DNA of 34,041 nt, from NCBI GenBank assembly GCA_002900995.3, contig PJEW03000032.1:1-34041 (forward strand), in the 5' to 3' direction. Every line of letters starts with the position of its first letter. Position 1 is the first letter of the stretch. This stretch comes from Ganoderma boninense (taxonomy: Eukaryota > Basidiomycota > Agaricomycetes > Polyporales > Polyporaceae). Both the position numbers and the translations under genes were made by a program. The notes under the pieces were generated by a model that was not told the origin of the DNA, made no database searches, and saw only the letters and a list, made by a program, of their open reading frames with translations. Shown piece by piece: positions 15,780-25,532 of the stretch.

Positions 15780-15813
15780 GTGAGTACATGTTCCGGCTGC
15801 ATGGCGTGGTTGA

Positions 15814-16272
15814 TGTTACGACTGGCTGTCGAGTAAGATCAGGGAGGAGGCTTACGAGACGAGCAAGGGCGTCGACGAGCACTTGTGCAGCGAGAGCGGA
15901 GCAGGGCTCGACAGTCAGGCTGGAGACAAGATGTATTGAGCGAGTAACTAACGAGCGAGAATACAGTGAGGCTTACCTGGAGACAAGAGGTCGAAACTGA
16001 GGTCTCCAGGTAGCGAAGTACAGGTCTTATATACATGTAGCGGACAATGGGAACCGGGGACAATAGGTAACTATGGACACGGGAACCAGTGGAAGAACAA
16101 TGGTATGTAGTACAATGACGATGGGAACAATGGGTGACAGGAGTTATTGTACTGCGAGAACAAGGGACGGGTTTGCTAAACAGCGGAGGACAATAAGGAC
16201 GACGCGGGAGGCAAACAGTCCGAAAAGGGAAAGAGAGACGCCGGGTAGGCGCCGAGCGTGCCGTTCATGACA
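15814..16272 (-). repeat. 3' LTR of the chromovirus
   Basis: This 459-bp direct repeat matches 24964-25422 at all but two positions. In the sense direction it begins TGTCATG and ends CGTAACA, the standard TG...CA ends. The predicted RNA start and self-primer sequence is also present here at 15988-15998. Confidence 0.97.
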
Positions 16273-16274
16273 AT

Positions 16275-16287
16275 ACCCCCCTCCTAA
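16275..16287 (-). other. Polypurine tract
   Basis: On the sense (minus) strand a purine run, TTAGGAGGGGGGT, ends two bases before the 3' LTR. This is where the RNase H-resistant primer for plus-strand DNA synthesis is expected. Confidence 0.8.
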
Positions 16288-16298
16288 GGATCGTGTCC

Positions 16299-18846
16299 TC
16301 ACGATTGAGTCTTCTTGTTGAGAGGGCCAGGAGCGTCGGGATGTGTCGAATGAAACTTTTGCAGCACTTTTGGCGCATTTGCTAGATCCGACACGTCTTC
16401 CCAGCTATTGTGTTCAGGGCCCCAGCCCTTCCAGTGAACAAGATACTGCAGTTTCTTCCACCGCCCATACCGACGCGACTCTAACACTTCCTCTACTTTG
16501 TACTCTTCCTCTCCTTCCACTTCAAGAGCTGCAGGTTCAGGGGGATGCCGACCGGGAAGTTGGCTTTCTTTGTGCGGGTGTAGGAGTGTCACATGGAACA
16601 CTGGGTGGAGCCCCATGTCTTTGGGGAGCTTGAGCTCGTAAGCCAAGTTGCCCACCTTGCGCTTGACAGGGTATGGGCCAGCGTACCGGTCCACCAGCTT
16701 CCGAGAGACTCCTGGGACACGGAAGTTCCTCGTGTCGAGCCACACCTTCTGACCCTCCTTGAACTCTGGAGCAGTGGAGACATAGCGATCGTAGTACTCC
16801 TTCATCCGCTCTGCTGCCAGGGTTAAGGCTGAGGTCGCATCCTCCCTTGCCTGCCGCAACTCCTCTCTTCGTTCATCTGCCGTAGGCACCGTGGTGGATA
16901 GCATCGGAACGTGGAACTGAGGTTCATAGCCGTACATGAGGTAAAACGGTGAGTACCCTGTGGATGAATGTACGCGCGAGTTAAAGCAGTACTCTGCTGT
17001 TGGTAGCCACTTGACCCAATCGTCACGGCGCCTTGAGCAGTACATCCGTAGGTACACCTCTATCTCCTGGTTCCATCGCTCCGACTGTCCATCCGTCTGT
17101 GGGTGGTAGGCTGTGGATAACGCGCTTTCTATGTCGAGGCCTTTAAGGATTGCACGGAAGAGCTTGCTAGAGAACTGGGGCCCCCGATCAGAGATGATCT
17201 TTCGCGGGAGTCCATGTAGGCGGAACCATTCTCTAATGAAGTTGTCTGCAGTCCCTTCCGTGTCGATCTCCTCGGTGCATGGAATAAGGTGAATCATCTT
17301 TCCATGCCGATCAGCAATAAGCTGGAGCGCGTTGTATCCGTCCACCTCCGGTAGTCCAGTGATGAAGTCACAGGTAACTACTTGGCCTGGGCCATCCAGG
17401 ATCTCGTTGGGTTGAAGGGGACCGTGTGGCTTAGCATGTGAAGTCTTGCCACGGCGACAAGTGTTGCAGGTCTCAACGTAATCCTTAATGAACTTTGCCA
17501 TGCCCGGCCACCAGTAGTTCCGTGTAACCAACTCCACCGTCTTTGCCTGGCCAGGGTGTCCAGCAGGCGGGAGGTCGTGGTGAATGCGCACTATCTCTGC
17601 TCGGAGCGCGTCGTCTTTGGGGACATAAACTCGGCCGCGGTAGAGCAGCAGGCCTTGTTCTGTGTTCCAGTCCACCAAATCATTCTGTAGGCGTGCTGGC
17701 CCTAGCTTATCGAGCTTGCTGAGTGCCTCCGTGACCTCCTGCTCACGCTCTCCACATTCTCGAATGCGGCGGAGCAGTGCCTTCTCTGGTACCACTGACA
17801 TGTGCCCTCTCTTGGCTGCCAGTACTCGGAAGCGATCGGGTTGCAACATGACTCGGTTCAGGTTGTCATCGGCGTCGTCCTTCTGGTAATCAGGCCTGCG
17901 CGACAGCGCATCTGCCCTACCATTGGAGGTGCCTGGCTTGTGTGCAATGACAAAGTCGAACCGCGACAGATAGAGAGCCCAACGTGCCTGCCTGCGTGTG
18001 AGGTTTTGTGCGGCCTTCCAGTACTCGAGGTTCTTGTGGTCCGACTGGATCTCGAACACACTGGGAAGACCCTCGAGGTAGTGGCGCCAGGCCTGCAGGG
18101 CACGGATGATAGCGAGCATCTCCTTGTCATAGATCTCGTAGTTGCGTTCCGCATCGCTCATTGACTCAGAGTGGAAAGCCACAGGATGCCATTTGCCGTC
18201 CTCCCCCTCCTGAGACAGAACCGCACCGGTAGCATACCCGGATGCATCGACTTCAATGCGGGTTTTGCGGTCTGGGTCATACATGCTCAGGACAGGGCTT
18301 TCAGTGAAACGACATTTGAGCTCATCGAATGCTGACTGCTCTTCGGCACCCCATTGCCAGGGAGCATTACCCGTGAGACGGTCAAGGGGTTTGCATACTG
18401 CGCTGAAGTCCTTAATGAACCGCCTGTAGAAATTCGCGAAACCGCGGAACTTCCGTACATCTGAGGCGTTCTGAGGGACAGGCCATTCTGCGATACCCCT
18501 GACCTTCACTGGGTCCATCTCCACACGGTTCTCCGAGACGAGCACACCTAGGTACTCAACCTTCGGCTGTTCGAATTCGCACTTCTCTGGCTTGCAGAAC
18601 AGGTCGTGCTCTGCCAGACGCTTCAGGACCTCACGCACCAATGTGCGGTGTTCCTCGATGTCGTTGGTGAATATGAGGATGTCGTCGAGGTAGATAGTGA
18701 TTTTGCCGAGTATGATGAGGTCCTTGAAGATGTCGTTCATGAGCGCAGAGAATGTACTGGGCGAGTTAGCCAGTCCGAAGTACATCACGTTCGGTTCGAA
18801 CAGTCCGCGATTGGTAACAAAGGCAGCCTTCCATTCATCACCGGTC
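16299..18846 (-). CDS. pol: Chromovirus pol, downstream part: RT, RNase H, integrase, chromodomain
   Basis: The open frame covers 858 codons. The first ten come from the inserted foldback end and genuine pol resumes at TGDEWKAAF. RT continues with the catalytic YLDD (residues 62-65 of this frame). RNase H has the EVDASGYATGAVLSQ motif. Integrase has the HHCC zinc module (HHDLPPAGHPG, CNTCRRGK), then a DDE core: CDFITGLPEVDG, ISDRGPQFSS and YHPQTDGQSERWNQE. The chromodomain occupies about residues 791-843 (YKVEEVLE, YLVHWKGW, NSWED), with aromatic residues suited to bind methylated histone tails and direct integration to heterochromatin. No internal stop or frameshift is seen, so the only visible lesion is the insertion that separates it from the upstream half. 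Confidence 0.95.
18840..18846. repeat. Left target-site duplication of the foldback element
   Basis: ACCGGTC is repeated at 21916-21922. Removing one copy with the element rejoins the pol codons for R-I-K-T-G-D-E-W without a gap, which confirms the insertion site to the base. Confidence 0.93.
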
Positions 18847-20334
18847 CACCTGTGGTTTCCACTATTGTAATACAATGGCCCACTTAGGTGCTACAGGCGT
18901 TGTGCAATTTGTGGTCACCTTGTAAAATTGTACAAACGAGCTATCTAGAATAACAATGGCTGGAGGAGGTTGTTGTATATGTGGTAGGTTGTATATCAGC
19001 ATATGGGGTGTTGTTGAATGGTCGGGGATTGTCAATCTGCATATTGTGGATCAGGAATGGGCTTGTTGTATATCTGGCAGGTTGTATATCAGGCTTGGGT
19101 GTATTGTTGAATGGCCAGGGGTTGTAAATCTGCATATTGTGGATCAGGAATGGGCTTGTTGTATATCTGGCAGGTTGTATATCAGGCTTGGGTGTATTGT
19201 TGAATGGCCAGGGGTTGTAAATCTGCATATTGTGGATCAGGAATGGGCTTGTTGTATATCTGGCAGGTTGTATATCAGGCTTGGGTATATTGTTGAATGC
19301 TCAGGGATTGTAAATGCAATTGATATTGTCAATAGATGCTGATCTGATGGGCGCTTTTGGGCGCTTTTTTGGTAATCTGGCTTCCTGAAATGGCAGGTAG
19401 GGGCAGGGGGCAGGTAGGGGACCGGGATGGGGTACCTTCTAGGTCCATTGTGGGCTCAATACTGCAGCTATTGACTTGATTCTTTTTGCAGCATGTACAT
19501 ATAGATAGGGAGCATCCAGTAGACCAAACAGCGAAGCAATACACCCACTACAGCTATTTATATAGCCTATACAGTGGTGGGGAGGAGAGGGTGCTGTATC
19601 TTGGGCATTTCTTGGGCAATCCCCTTCGTTGTTTTTGCATATAGTAGGCATTAGTAGTGGTATATTGGGTATGTGGTTCGATTTGGGCAGCAGTGCCTAG
19701 TACTATTTATGGGGAGCCTACACTATTCAGCCCCTAGGCACTTTGCAGGCCAATAGCTTGGGGGCCAGTGGTGCTATGACTAAGCCCTTAGTACCGTTGG
19801 AAAGGCATAATTTAGGGCTTTCTAACGGTATACCATACACCCCAATCCATGCACTTCCACTTACCCCCTCCTCCTCCCTCCCCCCACACTGATCCCCTTA
19901 TACTGCAGCCCTCCGTGGTCAGATTGCCTTGAAACTTTATACACATGTTATGCTATATGTCTGGCATATATGTACCAACTTTCATCCTGTGAATCACCCT
20001 ACTCCTTCCGATATTCTATTTCTGCCATAGCACAATACTTGCATACTGTTTCCTCCATATCTTCCTACCACCTTCACCAAATCACAGGATCTCTTTTGTT
20101 CTATATTTGTGTACTGTACCACTATCCAGATCGCCCATTGCATTTCTTATCAGAGCATAGGATCCCTTATGCTATTCTTATCAGTGTTTGCACACTAATA
20201 CCCCCACTGTAATAGATCAGGAAATACCATACAGATCAGATACCACCATTGGATAGAGGTCAATTACCGCTTTCCAACACATTTTAGATCATGCAATTTG
20301 GCCAAAAACTGAGGGAGATATGGGGGGAAGAGTG
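18847..20334 (+). repeat. Left inverted arm of the foldback element
   Basis: About 1488 bp, reverse-complementary to 20427-21915. Every segment compared base by base is identical except for one G inserted in the right arm (opposite about 20221) and a few mismatches at the inner end. A 12-bp internal hairpin lies around 19792-19832 (ACCGTTGGAAAG paired with CTTTCTAACGGT, one mismatch). Confidence 0.93.
18967..19314 (+). repeat. 93-bp tandem repeat, about 3.7 copies (left arm)
   Basis: The period is exactly 93 bp: the AATCTGCATATTGTGG phrase starts at 19034, 19127 and 19220. Ninety-three is a multiple of three, which is why a 31-residue repeat appears in an open frame. The outer copies are more diverged than the inner ones. 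It is mirrored in the right arm. Confidence 0.92.
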
Positions 20335-20426
20335 CTGGATGCACCATTTGGGATGCACTGGACAGGAGGTTTCCTTCGGAAATTGGTGCACAGCTCTGTT
20401 CCAACCAGTCTAAAGTACCCTTCAAC
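20335..20426. other. Unique spacer at the centre of the foldback element
   Basis: This ~92-bp non-palindromic loop separates the two arms. It contains no open frame or motif I recognise. It is the only sequence in the element that fixes left-right orientation. Confidence 0.8.
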
Positions 20427-21915
20427 CACTCCTCCCCCCATATCTCCCTCAGTTTTTGGCCAAATTGCATGATCTAAAATGTGTTGGAAAGCGGTAATTG
20501 ACCTCTATCCAATGGTGGTATCTGATCTGTATGGTATTTCCCTGATCTATTACAGTGGGGGTATTAGTGTGCAAACACTGATAAGAATAGCATAAGGGAT
20601 CCTATGCTCTGATAAGAAATGCAATGGGCGATCTGGATAGTGGTACAGTACACAAATATAGAACAAAAGAGATCCTGTGATTTGGTGAAGGTGGTAGGAA
20701 GATATGGAGGAAACAGTATGCAAGTATTGTGCTATGGCAGAAATAGAATATCGGAAGGAGTAGGGTGATTCACAGGATGAAAGTTGGTACATATATGCCA
20801 GACATATAGCATAACATGTGTATAAAGTTTCAAGGCAATCTGACCACGGAGGGCTGCAGTATAAGGGGATCAGTGTGGGGGGAGGGAGGAGGAGGGGGTA
20901 AGTGGAAGTGCATGGATTGGGGTGTATGGTATACCGTTAGAAAGCCCTAAATTATGCCTTTCCAACGGTACTAAGGGCTTAGTCATAGCACCACTGGCCC
21001 CCAAGCTATTGGCCTGCAAAGTGCCTAGGGGCTGAATAGTGTAGGCTCCCCATAAATAGTACTAGGCACTGCTGCCCAAATCGAACCACATACCCAATAT
21101 ACCACTACTAATGCCTACTATATGCAAAAACAACGAAGGGGATTGCCCAAGAAATGCCCAAGATACAGCACCCTCTCCTCCCCACCACTGTATAGGCTAT
21201 ATAAATAGCTGTAGTGGGTGTATTGCTTCGCTGTTTGGTCTACTGGATGCTCCCTATCTATATGTACATGCTGCAAAAAGAATCAAGTCAATAGCTGCAG
21301 TATTGAGCCCACAATGGACCTAGAAGGTACCCCATCCCGGTCCCCTACCTGCCCCCTGCCCCTACCTGCCATTTCAGGAAGCCAGATTACCAAAAAAGCG
21401 CCCAAAAGCGCCCATCAGATCAGCATCTATTGACAATATCAATTGCATTTACAATCCCTGAGCATTCAACAATATACCCAAGCCTGATATACAACCTGCC
21501 AGATATACAACAAGCCCATTCCTGATCCACAATATGCAGATTTACAACCCCTGGCCATTCAACAATACACCCAAGCCTGATATACAACCTGCCAGATATA
21601 CAACAAGCCCATTCCTGATCCACAATATGCAGATTTACAACCCCTGGCCATTCAACAATACACCCAAGCCTGATATACAACCTGCCAGATATACAACAAG
21701 CCCATTCCTGATCCACAATATGCAGATTGACAATCCCCGACCATTCAACAACACCCCATATGCTGATATACAACCTACCACATATACAACAACCTCCTCC
21801 AGCCATTGTTATTCTAGATAGCTCGTTTGTACAATTTTACAAGGTGACCACAAATTGCACAACGCCTGTAGCACCTAAGTGGGCCATTGTATTACAATAG
21901 TGGAAACCACAGGTG
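20427..21915 (-). repeat. Right inverted arm of the foldback element
   Basis: About 1489 bp, the reverse complement of 18847-20334, one base longer owing to the single-base insertion. It carries the same hairpin and tandem repeat in mirror order. Confidence 0.93.
21448..21795 (-). repeat. 93-bp tandem repeat, about 3.7 copies (right arm)
   Basis: Mirror copy of the repeat at 18967-19314, with the same unit length and order of variant units in the opposite orientation. Confidence 0.92.
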
Positions 21916-21922
21916 ACCGGTC
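21916..21922. repeat. Right target-site duplication of the foldback element
   Basis: Second copy of ACCGGTC. It directly abuts the CAGGTG end of the element and continues into the RT codons of the upstream pol half. Confidence 0.93.
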
Positions 21923-23154
21923 TTAATCCGCACATTGTTGTACCCCCAACGGATGTCAAGCTTGGTAAAGTACTTGGCCCTCTTGAGTCGATCCATCAAG
22001 TCTGACACCAACGGTAGTGGGTATCGGTTCTTAATGGTGATGTCGTTCAATCGCCGGTAGTCCTGTACAGGACGTAGGCTGCCATCCTTCTTTTTAACGA
22101 AGAAGAACGGTGATGACATCGGTGACTTCGACTCTTGAATATAACCTTTGGCCAAGTTCTCACTAAGGAACTTGTCAAGCTCGACCTGCTTGCTGGGAGA
22201 CAGGGGGTACACCTTGGAATGGAACATCCTAGCATCTGGTACGAGTTCTATAGTGTGGTCATAGGGTCCGTGCTCAGGTAGTCGTTCGGACGCCTCTTTC
22301 GAGAACACACGCAGATACTCGTGGTACTGGGGAGGTACAATCTCTTCGACAGGACGGACTTCCTTCTTCTGGTACTCTTGTTCAGCAAGCTGTTGAGAGT
22401 ACGTGTAGCTCGCCGACACAAAGATCTTAGGGGTACCTCGAAGTTGTCGTCCATCTTCCAGTGCATTGAGAAGAGACTCCTCAGTGCCATCCCATTCCGG
22501 CAGAAAACCTGGTGGTGGAGGCCTATCTTCCTCCTCCTCAACCATTACGGCCGTGCATATCCTACCCATCATCTTTGCCTTCCGCACCCGCCGAGAACCA
22601 TTGCGCGCCGTAAGCCGTACCTCCGTATCACGCGCTTTGGTCTCAACAGGTTTGGATGCCTTCCGATGAGCCGGACATGCCTCTGGACATCTCGATAGGC
22701 GCAGCGAGCCACGTTCCCAATCTACTTCAGGGTTGTGCTCGCGCAGCCAGTCCAGGCCAATAATCACATCCTCTTCTCCTATGTCTGTCACCACAAACAC
22801 CACCTTCTCCTGGTGGTCTCCAATCGCCATATCCAACACAGCGACTTCCGTGATCGTCCCATCACAGTTCTCAGTACCATCTATGTTGTACAGAGGAATT
22901 GGCCTTGCCAACTTCCTCGTCGTAACCTGGTTCTTCTCCACGAACCGTCTATGTAAAAACTTAGTAGTAGCTCCACTATCTACCATTGCTACTATGTCCT
23001 TATGTCGCTGCTTGCCGATTAACCGTACCGGTATATGAAAGTGTTGACCACTGTGATTTACCTCATATACAAACGCGGAGCTCAGTACAGAAAATCGACT
23101 ATTACTACAAGAGCCGGCACGCGCAGCGTCCAGTGCGGCTCTAATCAGAAACCC
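21923..23154 (-). CDS. pol: Chromovirus pol, upstream part: protease and start of RT
   Basis: The frame is open from the gag-pol frameshift (about 23154) onward and does not begin at its own ATG. The ATG at 22986 is the Met of VAMVDSGATTK, inside the aspartic protease active site (D-S-G), so initiation there would delete part of the protease. RT follows: the thumb-proximal HTIELVPDA and PLSPSKQVELDKFL stretches, then FFVKKKDGSLRPVQDYRRLN and KLDIRWGYNNVRIKTG. There the foldback element cuts the frame. A read-through product ends after seven foreign residues at a stop near 21892. Together with 16299-18846 it makes one pol polyprotein. Confidence 0.93.
23110..23154 (-). promoter_or_regulatory. 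Programmed -1 ribosomal frameshift signal between gag and pol
   Basis: On the sense strand the heptamer GGGTTTC (23148-23154) sits in the gag frame as G-GGT-TTC. It fits X-XXY-YYZ and is followed at once by the gag stop TGA (23145-23147). Five bases further a stem-loop begins (23110-23142): AGAGCCG-CAC pairs with GTG-C-CGGCTCT, ten base pairs with one bulged C. Pol continues in the -1 frame, as slippage here predicts. This is the classical arrangement for making Gag-Pol at a low ratio to Gag. Confidence 0.85.
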
Positions 23155-24575
23155 TCCTTCTTCTCAGTGGTTGTAAGGGCCGCGATCTTCTCCTCCACCG
23201 CCTTGAGCTGGGCCTGAAGGGCTGCTACTTCCGTGGTCGTAGTGGACGAGGAAGCGGCTTGCTGACTCTTCAACCGCGGACAGTCATACTTACGATGTCC
23301 GGGCTGGCCACAGATGTAGCAGTTTCCTGAGAACGGCTTCTTCCCAGTAGCAGCCGCTTTCTCCCCCTTCTTCTTCCATCCAAACGACTTCGGCCGTTCT
23401 TCCTCTCTGGTGACGAGGGCCTGGTCGAGCGACAGCGCCACCTTCTGGATTTTGGTGAGGTCCGAGATGTCGTGAGCACTGGTGGCGAGGACATCCCGAA
23501 GCCTGGGAGGCAGGCCAGAGCGGTAGCGTTCGCGTTTGTCCTCGTCGCCGAAGCCGGTCCGCGCTGCAGCTGCATTGAACTGTGCCGTATACTCCTGGAC
23601 TGTGCCGACCTTGCGGTATGCCTTGCAGAGCTTGACCAGTTCAGCGATGGCAGCCTCCTTGTCGTCGGCTGCGCAGAAGTGGTCCTTGAAGGCTGTGCTG
23701 AACGCGCCGTAGTTCGCCCAAGGACTAGTTCCACCTGCGAGCGTCACAATGTGGGGGCCGGCCCAGGCTGCTGCTCCTTCCGTGAGCCTACTGAGGATGG
23801 TCATCCATACCACATCAGTTGGTGTGCCGACAGCCACCGCTGTGAGGGTGTTGAAGTAGATCTGGGCTGCAGACACGAAGTGGAGGCCATCCTGGGGGGA
23901 CTTTCCGTCATAGTCGCGTGGGGCAATTTGGGAAAGGAGCTTGGAGGTGTCGAACGGTGGAGCGGGGGCAGGGGTAGTCATGGCGGGTGTGGACGCTCGA
24001 CTGGGTGCAGCTGATGAAGAGGATGAGGGTTGTGGAGTGTTGAGGCTGATGGTCTCTTGCTTGGGTTCCTCCTTTACTTCCGGCTTTTTCTCTGCCTTTG
24101 GGAGTTTAGAAGTTGAAGCAATGGGGGTTGCGGGAGTCGAGGTTCGTCGCTGTCCAAGACGCTCTGTGACGAGTTCGAGAGTCTTGTCGAGGATGGGAGA
24201 CCCTGTCGATCGTGCAGGACTGGGGATTCGACTTTGGACACGACTCTGGGGTTGTGAGGTAGGGCGTGAGGCAGGGCGGGATGAGGGGTTCCTGGATGCG
24301 ATGAGGGCGGCTTGGCGAGCTGGGGGTCGGCTTGGATCTCGAGGTGCAGGTGCTGGTGGGTTTGCGATCTTCGCACGGATTAGGACTTCCTGTTCTTTGG
24401 TGGTGAGGAGTCTAGGGGCGATGCCTTCGCGAGTTTCAAGAGTATCGTCGAATGTGTGTGATCGGTGGGGGCACGGTTGCTCCTCGCAGTAGTACCAGGC
24501 TTGCTTATCTTCGTCCCAGTACTCGTCCTGTACTGCAGTGGGGTGAAATATGTGTCCCCAGGCTTGGCAAGCCAC
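23145..24575 (-). CDS. gag: Chromovirus gag, 476 aa
   Basis: Structural protein of the virus-like particle. ATG 24575 is the first in the frame after the leader. Residues ~1-60 are Cys/His-rich (YYCEEQPCPH), followed by a long Pro/Ser/Ala-rich, low-complexity linker (~70-215). A helical capsid-like domain comes next (~216-395, with DGLHFVSAAQIYF and TVQEYTAQFNAAAARTGF). A single CCHC zinc knuckle, CYICGQPGHRKYDC, lies at ~419-432, and a short C-terminal coiled coil (VAALQAQLKAVEEKIAAL) precedes the stop. The zinc knuckle binds genomic RNA. The frame is intact and ends at the frameshift site. N-terminal Cys/His richness ahead of the linker is somewhat unusual but I cannot assign it. Confidence 0.93.
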   Translation of the reverse strand: MACQAWGHIFHPTAVQDEYWDEDKQAWYYCEEQPCPHRSHTFDDTLETREGIAPRLLTTKEQEVLIRAKIANPPAPAPRDPSRPPARQAALIASRNPSSRPASRPTSQPQSRVQSRIPSPARSTGSPILDKTLELVTERLGQRRTSTPATPIASTSKLPKAEKKPEVKEEPKQETISLNTPQPSSSSSAAPSRASTPAMTTPAPAPPFDTSKLLSQIAPRDYDGKSPQDGLHFVSAAQIYFNTLTAVAVGTPTDVVWMTILSRLTEGAAAWAGPHIVTLAGGTSPWANYGAFSTAFKDHFCAADDKEAAIAELVKLCKAYRKVGTVQEYTAQFNAAAARTGFGDEDKRERYRSGLPPRLRDVLATSAHDISDLTKIQKVALSLDQALVTREEERPKSFGWKKKGEKAAATGKKPFSGNCYICGQPGHRKYDCPRLKSQQAASSSTTTTEVAALQAQLKAVEEKIAALTTTEKKEGF

Positions 24576-24950
24576 GTTGAATCTCGCTTCCTTATCCTAG
24601 GAATGAAACGGCAGGTGCACGATCCAACACTGTCTGCTCAGCCTCCTCGGCCTATTGCTGTGTCTTAGCCCAAGGGACACGGGCCCAAGGGTGTTCTGCC
24701 TTGGCTTTGTTTCGCCGCCTTTCTCTAGCCTCCCACGCCGTGAGGCGGACCACTTCTGTCAGTACCGGGGTCTCGTGTTAGGAGCTTTCCGCGTACTGTA
24801 CCACTAAGAGTGGCAAGCCTCAGGTTGCGCCGAGACCACGTCCGATGGTGTGACTAGAGTGCGCACTACGCTAGGCCAACACAGAGGATCTAAGTGCGTA
24901 CCGTACGAGAGGGAAAGAGTGTGGATGGAGTACGCCGGTGCTCGTGTAGA
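24576..24950 (-). other. Untranslated leader of the chromovirus RNA
   Basis: About 375 bases lie between the primer binding site and the gag ATG, with no frame of interest. It is expected to hold packaging signals. No specific structure was identified. Confidence 0.6.
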
Positions 24951-24963
24951 AGTTTCGACCTAA
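24951..24963 (-). other. Primer binding site, self-primed type
   Basis: The sense strand reads TT then AGGTCGAAACT directly after the 5' LTR end. It does not begin TGG, as expected for a site matching the CCA end of a tRNA. The 11-mer AGGTCGAAACT is the exact reverse complement of AGTTTCGACCT in the LTR (sense strand, 25148 down to 25138), at the predicted RNA 5' end. This is the Tf1-type self-priming arrangement. Confidence 0.8.
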
Positions 24964-25422
24964 TGTTACGACTGGCTGTCGAGTAAGATCAGGGAGGAGG
25001 CTTACGAGACGAGCAAGGGCGTCGACGAGCACTTGTGCAGCGAGAGCGGAGCAGGGCTCGACAGTCAGGCTGGAGACAAGATGTATTGAGCGAGTAACTA
25101 ACGAGCGAGAATACAGTGAGGCTTACCTGGAGACAAGAGGTCGAAACTGAGGTCTCCAGGTAGCGAAGTACAGGTCTTATATACATGTAGCGGACAATGG
25201 GAACCGGGGACAATAGGTAACTATGGACACGGGAACCAGTGGAAGAACAATGGTATGTAGTACAATGACGATGGGAACAATGGGTGACAGGAGTTATTGT
25301 ACTGCGAGAACAAGGGACGGGTTTGCTAAACAACGGAGGACAATAAGGACGACGCGGGAGGCAAACAGTCCGAAAAGGGAAAGAGAGACGCCGGGTAGGC
25401 GCCGAGCATGCCGTTCATGACA
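24964..25422 (-). repeat. 5' LTR of the chromovirus
   Basis: 459 bp, TG...CA ends in the sense direction, 457 of 459 positions identical to the 3' LTR. It contains a TATA box and the predicted RNA start. Of the two differences from the 3' LTR, the one at 25408 (A, versus G at 16258) lies in a CpG context, as methylated-cytosine deamination would produce. Confidence 0.97.
25176..25183 (-). promoter_or_regulatory. TATA box of the chromovirus promoter
   Basis: TATATAAG on the sense strand begins 35 bases upstream of the AGTTTCGACCT sequence (25148). That spacing is suitable for transcription starting at or next to that A. The same box lies at 16026-16033 in the 3' LTR. Confidence 0.7.
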
Positions 25423-25532
25423 ATTATGTTAGGAACAGACCAGCCGCTGAACCAGCTACGCCAAAAGGACGCAATGTCAAGCCAAGCTTGACACTTGGCT
25501 GGTACTGTATATGTAGCTCGTAATGCCTGTTC

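Follow-up and report, generated by a model that had tools for sequence, protein, structure and literature searches.

The window, by which we mean the whole 34,041-nucleotide stretch of Ganoderma boninense DNA analysed here, contains a chromovirus (a Ty3-type LTR retrotransposon) whose reverse transcriptase (RT) gene is interrupted by a 3,069-bp near-perfect palindrome, evident by direct sequence comparison at positions 18847-21915. The features of the locus are as follows.

15813..25424, minus strand: host chromovirus, interrupted in RT (LTR comparison and domain matches)
15813..16274 and 24963..25424: LTR-like stretches of the host chromovirus, differing at 2 of 462 positions
16299..18845: C-terminal part of RT, RNase H, integrase and chromodomain (domain matches)
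18840..18846: left target-site duplication, ACCGGTC (flank comparison and empty sites in paralogues)
18847..20334, plus strand: left arm, 1,488 bp (self-comparison)
18847..18918, plus strand: terminal 72 bp, 78% identical to the ends of the long elements C11:186068-197663 and C15:51500-59971
18847..19340, plus strand: left outer end, 494 bp, 95% shared, with L009 only; 11 TTGTAWAT motifs (both strands)
18970..19315, plus strand: 93-bp tandem repeats of the left arm (repeat analysis)
19341..20334, plus strand: left core, common to other palindromes of the genome regardless of their outer ends
20335..20426, plus strand: asymmetric loop, 92 bp, with a small TTTCCTTCGGAAA hairpin in its middle
20427..21915, minus strand: right arm, 1,489 bp (self-comparison)
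21447..21792, minus strand: 93-bp tandem repeats of the right arm (repeat analysis)
21916..21922: right target-site duplication, ACCGGTC (flank comparison)
21892..22986: protease and N-terminal part of RT (domain matches)

The two arms of the palindrome differ from each other by only one A/G substitution and one 1-bp indel, each contains three of the 93-bp repeat units, and the central 161 nt fold much more stably than 200 shuffles (z score -7.85). A previous reading of this DNA made from the sequence alone (the sequence-only reading) described arms of about 1.49 kb around a loop of about 92 bp, with ACCGGTC on both flanks and no transposase, and we find the same sizes and flanks and likewise no transposase gene in the palindrome. 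The element has the properties of the foldback-type class, in that internally repetitive long inverted repeats make up most of its length and a target-site duplication surrounds it. The 1.49-kb inverted repeat is not a product of chance, because copies of it, flanked by duplications, are scattered through the genome as a family, and the interpretation of the window element as a foldback (palindromic) DNA transposon, also offered by the sequence-only reading, is supported by this family, by the 7-bp duplications, and by empty sites. A minus-strand transcript, as that reading suggested, would form a very long hairpin and might be a source of small RNAs.

The identity of the interrupted gene is clear, as the two RT parts lie on either side of the palindrome and the retrotransposon as a whole has domain matches to gag, zinc-knuckle, protease, RT, RNase H, integrase and chromodomain; the sequence-only reading was thus right in placing the insertion within a chromovirus RT gene. 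The host gag protein has 17 matching proteins, the seven named ones all being from Ganoderma (56-64% identity), and its best match is 97% over 58% of the query. The retrotransposon stretch next to the palindrome has at least 40 matches in the genome, including the window's own, among the best 40 of 204 candidates. When the flanks (60 plus 60 bp) are joined with a single ACCGGTC, the resulting sequence matches at 119, 120 and 120 of 120 positions in the three fetched paralogues, and we conclude from these empty sites, which the sequence-only reading had proposed looking for, that the insertion was exact. Its statement that excision restores the RT reading frame stands at the DNA level, as an exact empty site in all three paralogues, rather than as a translated frame.

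The small difference between the LTR-like stretches may mean that the window copy is young; no matching 5-bp duplication is seen by eye at the LTR ends of the host chromovirus (15813-25424), which may reflect recombination between copies and which weakens LTR dating. We note that the copies in the window, L014, L018 and L025 each occupy a different position within members of one chromovirus family; L044, a stretch fetched for dating L014 by its host LTRs, gave no LTR match.

Within the same genome assembly (55.6 Mb, 74 contigs), the window arm has at least 47 matches at E values up to 0.001 among the best candidates scored. We fetched 20 further arm-bearing regions, most of them on contigs of 0.6-6.7 Mb, and the family comprises about twenty copies. 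The exact 29-base terminus of the window element is present at both ends of an element on contig C8 and also on C2, and with up to three mismatches it occurs in 16 places in the genome; together with the genome-wide arm matches, this answers the concern raised in the sequence-only reading that there might be no other copies with these ends. Target-site duplications were checked in 14 complete palindromes, 13 of which are independent once L028 is merged with L015, and 11 of these 13 have perfect 7-bp duplications; L011 and L028 each have one mismatch, and L024, with five, has no duplication. L028 (3489-6304 of that region, contig C64) at first sight resembles an old palindrome with 28% divergence between its arms, an interpretation that we reject: its flanks match the L015 flanks at about 90% on either side and the two duplications are almost the same, indicating that it is a poor or allelic duplicate of the same insertion, and we therefore removed it from the arm statistics. 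The loop was recovered in 13 of the 14 two-armed elements, at one and the same junction, which suggests that the palindrome probably had a single origin and that its arms were homogenised later.

Comparison of the core arms shows that the two arms of an element have evolved together. These statistics use 28 core arms from 14 elements out of 37 that were aligned, having omitted the two L028 arms and seven one-armed pieces; L020 was additionally left out of the between-element means (13 elements) because it lacks a loop and hence an orientation. Within elements the arms differ by a median of 0.45% (mean 0.97%), and between elements the differences are 8.3% for A-A, 9.4% for B-B and 8.9% for A-B comparisons. 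Of the 28 arms, 25 are closest to their own partner, and the remaining three (both L015 arms and one L024 arm) are nearer to another element; with all 37 arms considered, L019 is equally close to the one-armed L022 (0.3%) and to its own partner (0.4%), and a tree of the same 37 arms places those of L015 and L028 apart. Because partners are nearest to each other and A-A distances are much the same as A-B distances, the arms hold no memory of which side they occupy and have been homogenised, probably through gene conversion, either in place or during transposition. In L011 both letters occur in other elements at 13 of the 14 arm differences, a pattern that exchange between elements before copying across may have left, with misalignment at the loop or sequencing error possible in part; some arm differences at other loci too may be due to one or the other of these. 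The sequence-only reading attributed the near-identity of the arms either to a very recent insertion or to arm-to-arm conversion; the family data demand homogenisation before or at insertion, and the window copy may be young as well.

The outer ends behave differently from the cores. Outer ends of 320-490 bp that cannot be aligned with one another sit on one shared core; for example, the core of the window element is about 95% alike to that of L010, yet the window outer 494 bp have no match in L010 at E 1e-6. The reverse arrangement is also seen, as the ends of L010 and L023 are 99.7% alike over 358 bp and their inner parts differ at 75 of 571 positions, with a similar relationship between L019 and L020 (ends 99.7% alike, 71 of 558 inner positions different). 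Each of the 13 independent palindromes has the same type of end on its two sides, with 0-3 mismatches in 320 bp; several copies have ends that are 99-100% alike, and different end types are about 15% apart over 324 bp. In nine of 11 pairs sharing an end, the shift in divergence along the arm is sharper than in all but at most one of 1,000 shuffles, and there is no sharp shift in L012-L019 (65 of 1,000 shuffles) or L023-L024 (582); we note that what this test detects is unevenness in the divergence, a signal that alone cannot tell exchange apart from selection acting at the tips. Because unalignable outer ends are found on the same core, and always alike on its two sides, we conclude that ends have been replaced, and we propose that this happened on one arm and was then copied to the other. 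Searches with three further outer ends located them on palindromes and on one-armed copies, and the L010 type also on two KDZ-containing elements.

A relationship to KDZ transposons is likely from four elements of 8.5-11.6 kb that have related terminal inverted repeats (TIRs), 7-bp duplications, and a KDZ transposase match in each.

C11:186068-197663: duplication ACGATGC; ends matching the window terminal 72 bp at 78%
C15:51500-59971: duplication CGGGAGG; ends matching the window terminal 72 bp at 78%
C22:43819-54067: duplication GGCTGAC; CACCAGTAG-type ends, 81% over 251 bp
C11:107198-117557: duplication ACCTCAG; CACCAGTAG-type ends, 76% over 115 bp

Over the main pieces that align, the first two are 96-99% identical. 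Among the frames of C11:186068-197663, Pfam identifies CxC2 (3.1e-33) and KDZ (7.3e-32), and no transposase domain other than CxC and KDZ was found in the 20 frames scanned; the one-armed L018, which has the same core as the palindromes, terminates in sequence 76% identical to the end of this element over 254 bp. The genome is rich in KDZ, with at least 152 matches (150 of 154 candidates scored) and none in 14 control genomes; even so, a KDZ match in four of four long elements would not be expected by accident. There are 29 TET/JBP matches genome-wide, and the presence of both KDZ and TET/JBP agrees with descriptions of transposons in mushroom-forming fungi. None of the 29 is inside the four long elements; some are near palindromes, such as the one at C14:382322-382726, about 600 bp from the element of L024. 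With a KDZ domain in all four long elements and end identities of 76-81% over 72-251 bp, we name the superfamily with fair confidence and suggest that the palindrome family is likely to be moved in trans by KDZ transposases. The sequence-only reading could not assign the ends to a superfamily and proposed a search for a full-length, transposase-bearing relative; KDZ is now the likely assignment and four such relatives are at hand, although their ends are related to those of the palindromes and not the same, and the exact helper of the window element was not found, the nearest KDZ-containing ends sharing only 72 bp at 78%. The motif TTGTAWAT, which was chosen after looking at the sequences, is present 11 times (both strands) in the window outer 494 bp and 24 times in the C11 terminal repeat, and this same post hoc motif is absent from the window core, the C11 interior, and the L019 and L010 ends.

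Within the KDZ elements, the family is probably closest to the Kyakuja lineage. Kyakuja elements are described, in the text available to us, as having 7-bp duplications, CA..TG ends and Agaricomycotina hosts, and Zisupton and one Dileera family as having 8-bp duplications (Kojima 2025, PMC12730594). The termini here are CACCTG..CAGGTG and variants, and thus of the CA..TG type, and 7-bp duplications accompany 11 of 13 independent palindromes and all four long elements; this combination makes Kyakuja the likely lineage, which the long relatives further resemble in matching KDZ and CxC2. In contrast, the elements here have long TIRs and two Laccaria Kyakuja families are reported to have none, a trait that the same text does not state to be lineage-defining (Kojima 2025, PMC12730594); the window element differs also in being a palindrome without a transposase, and the four long elements in having no TET/JBP match. 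KDZ1, KDZ2 and KDZ3 of Cryptococcus neoformans are similar in their length (9-11 kb), KDZ and CxC domains, and TIRs of 139-241 bp, but have 8-bp (KDZ1) or 4-8-bp duplications, and we find no mention of palindromic derivatives in the portion of that account available (PMC12810828).

The closest parallel in behaviour is Galileo of Drosophila, which, in the parts of the reports available, has foldback-like long TIRs with tandem repeats and 7-bp duplications; in GalileoN-1 and GalileoN-2 the TIRs of a single copy are more than 99% identical, those of separate copies diverge by about 7%, and among its chimeric copies some have the ends of one subfamily and the middle of another (PMC2775673, PMC3573991). 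Unlike Galileo, an insect element with a P-superfamily transposase, the family described here is from a fungus, is associated with a KDZ domain, and consists of near-full palindromes with a 92-bp loop; the one long relative that was scanned contains only CxC and KDZ. The family thus appears to behave like Galileo without being a member of it. Tetris of Drosophila virilis, also an insect element, similarly has long TIRs with tandem repeats, for which its authors suspected homogenisation (PMC4079207); this likeness, drawn from its partial description, is one of repeat structure and suspected homogenisation. We noticed no foldback or palindromic KDZ element in the openly licensed papers covered, in so far as their text was available, and therefore take the foldback KDZ lineage as new and its behaviour as known from Galileo.

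We consider it probable that these are foldback elements mobilised in trans by KDZ transposases, with arms kept identical by repeated arm-to-arm copying. A KDZ transposase would recognise matching ends and cut and paste the palindrome; breaks or gaps in one arm would be repaired from the opposite arm, which is gene conversion, and occasionally from another element or from the terminal repeat of an autonomous element. An end newly gained in this way would be copied to the opposite arm, with the result that the two ends would be altered as a pair and the core could move to another helper family. The broader proposal, that one core-and-loop palindrome formed once and has ridden successive KDZ families, with self-conversion of its arms permitting the switch of transposase, is more tentative, and we put it at slightly less than an even chance.

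The arms could instead be alike merely because the element inserted very recently from a young palindrome, without any arm-to-arm copying. The few LTR differences in the host and the 99-100% similarity of ends among several copies, which suggests recent spread, are as this predicts; nonetheless we regard it as unlikely, since elements sharing the loop (13 of 14) are 8-9% apart in the core against a median of 0.45% between their own arms, and without copying the left arms should group together and the right arms likewise, yet A-A, B-B and A-B distances are alike. Somewhat less improbable, although still well behind end exchange, is that strong selection on the tips to which transposase binds has kept ends nearly identical although their cores are unlike. 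Constraint on tips is expected, and in several pairs differences rise gradually toward the core, but selection cannot make the 494-bp window ends and the 358-bp L010 ends unalignable beside cores that are about 95% alike, and the 15% distance between end types over 324 bp demonstrates that these ends can change.

That a different superfamily making 7-bp duplications moves the palindromes, such as hAT7 or the P superfamily, seems quite improbable; hAT7 of rusts does make 7-bp duplications (PMC12730594) and 7-bp sequences bound P-superfamily Galileo (PMC3573991), according to the available portions of those texts, but it is KDZ that is matched in each of the four long elements with related ends, and the 20 frames of one of them revealed no other transposase. 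We give hardly any credence to the palindrome being an assembly product. The window is on a contig of only 34 kb, and the small contig C64 plainly duplicates the L015 locus in poor or allelic form; however, most family sites are on far larger contigs (0.6-6.7 Mb), and assembly would be expected to yield neither the exact duplications seen at 11 of the 13 unrelated sites nor exact empty sites in paralogues, which strengthens the argument that the sequence-only reading had made from the clean duplication in the window.

If KDZ-mobilised palindromes do correct themselves as proposed, self-conversion between the arms may be what lets a non-coding palindrome switch transposase, and there would then be a route, open to testing, for such an element to change the enzyme that moves it. 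The family also extends to KDZ transposons the foldback behaviour that is well described for the P-superfamily element Galileo, and for KDZ families it supplies ends, duplications and a motif that is a candidate for binding. Instability is expected of long near-perfect palindromes, yet the dozen or so independent ones persisting in this assembly provide a natural set for measuring palindrome survival and self-correction.

Departures from the complete structure are found at the centre of several copies. L020 (4957-4969) is a palindrome without a loop, as deletion of the centre would leave. Centre breakage was also considered as the origin of the one-armed L018, the second piece of L025, and L027, and was dropped because the break in the loop fits insertion of an LTR element: the 5-bp sequence GTTTC is present on either side, and C4 and C16 carry the sequence adjoining the split loops in paired copies separated by 9.7-9.9 kb. 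The loops of these three (L018 3877-5307, L025 7024-8138 and L027 4352-5475) thus appear to have been split by an LTR element, and the three junctions lie within 130 kb on C2. Other one-armed copies end in or just past the loop (L017 5404-5494, L021 5474-5580, L022 4416-4465 and L026 4367-4418) and continue beyond it into other sequence, which for L021 is chromovirus pol.
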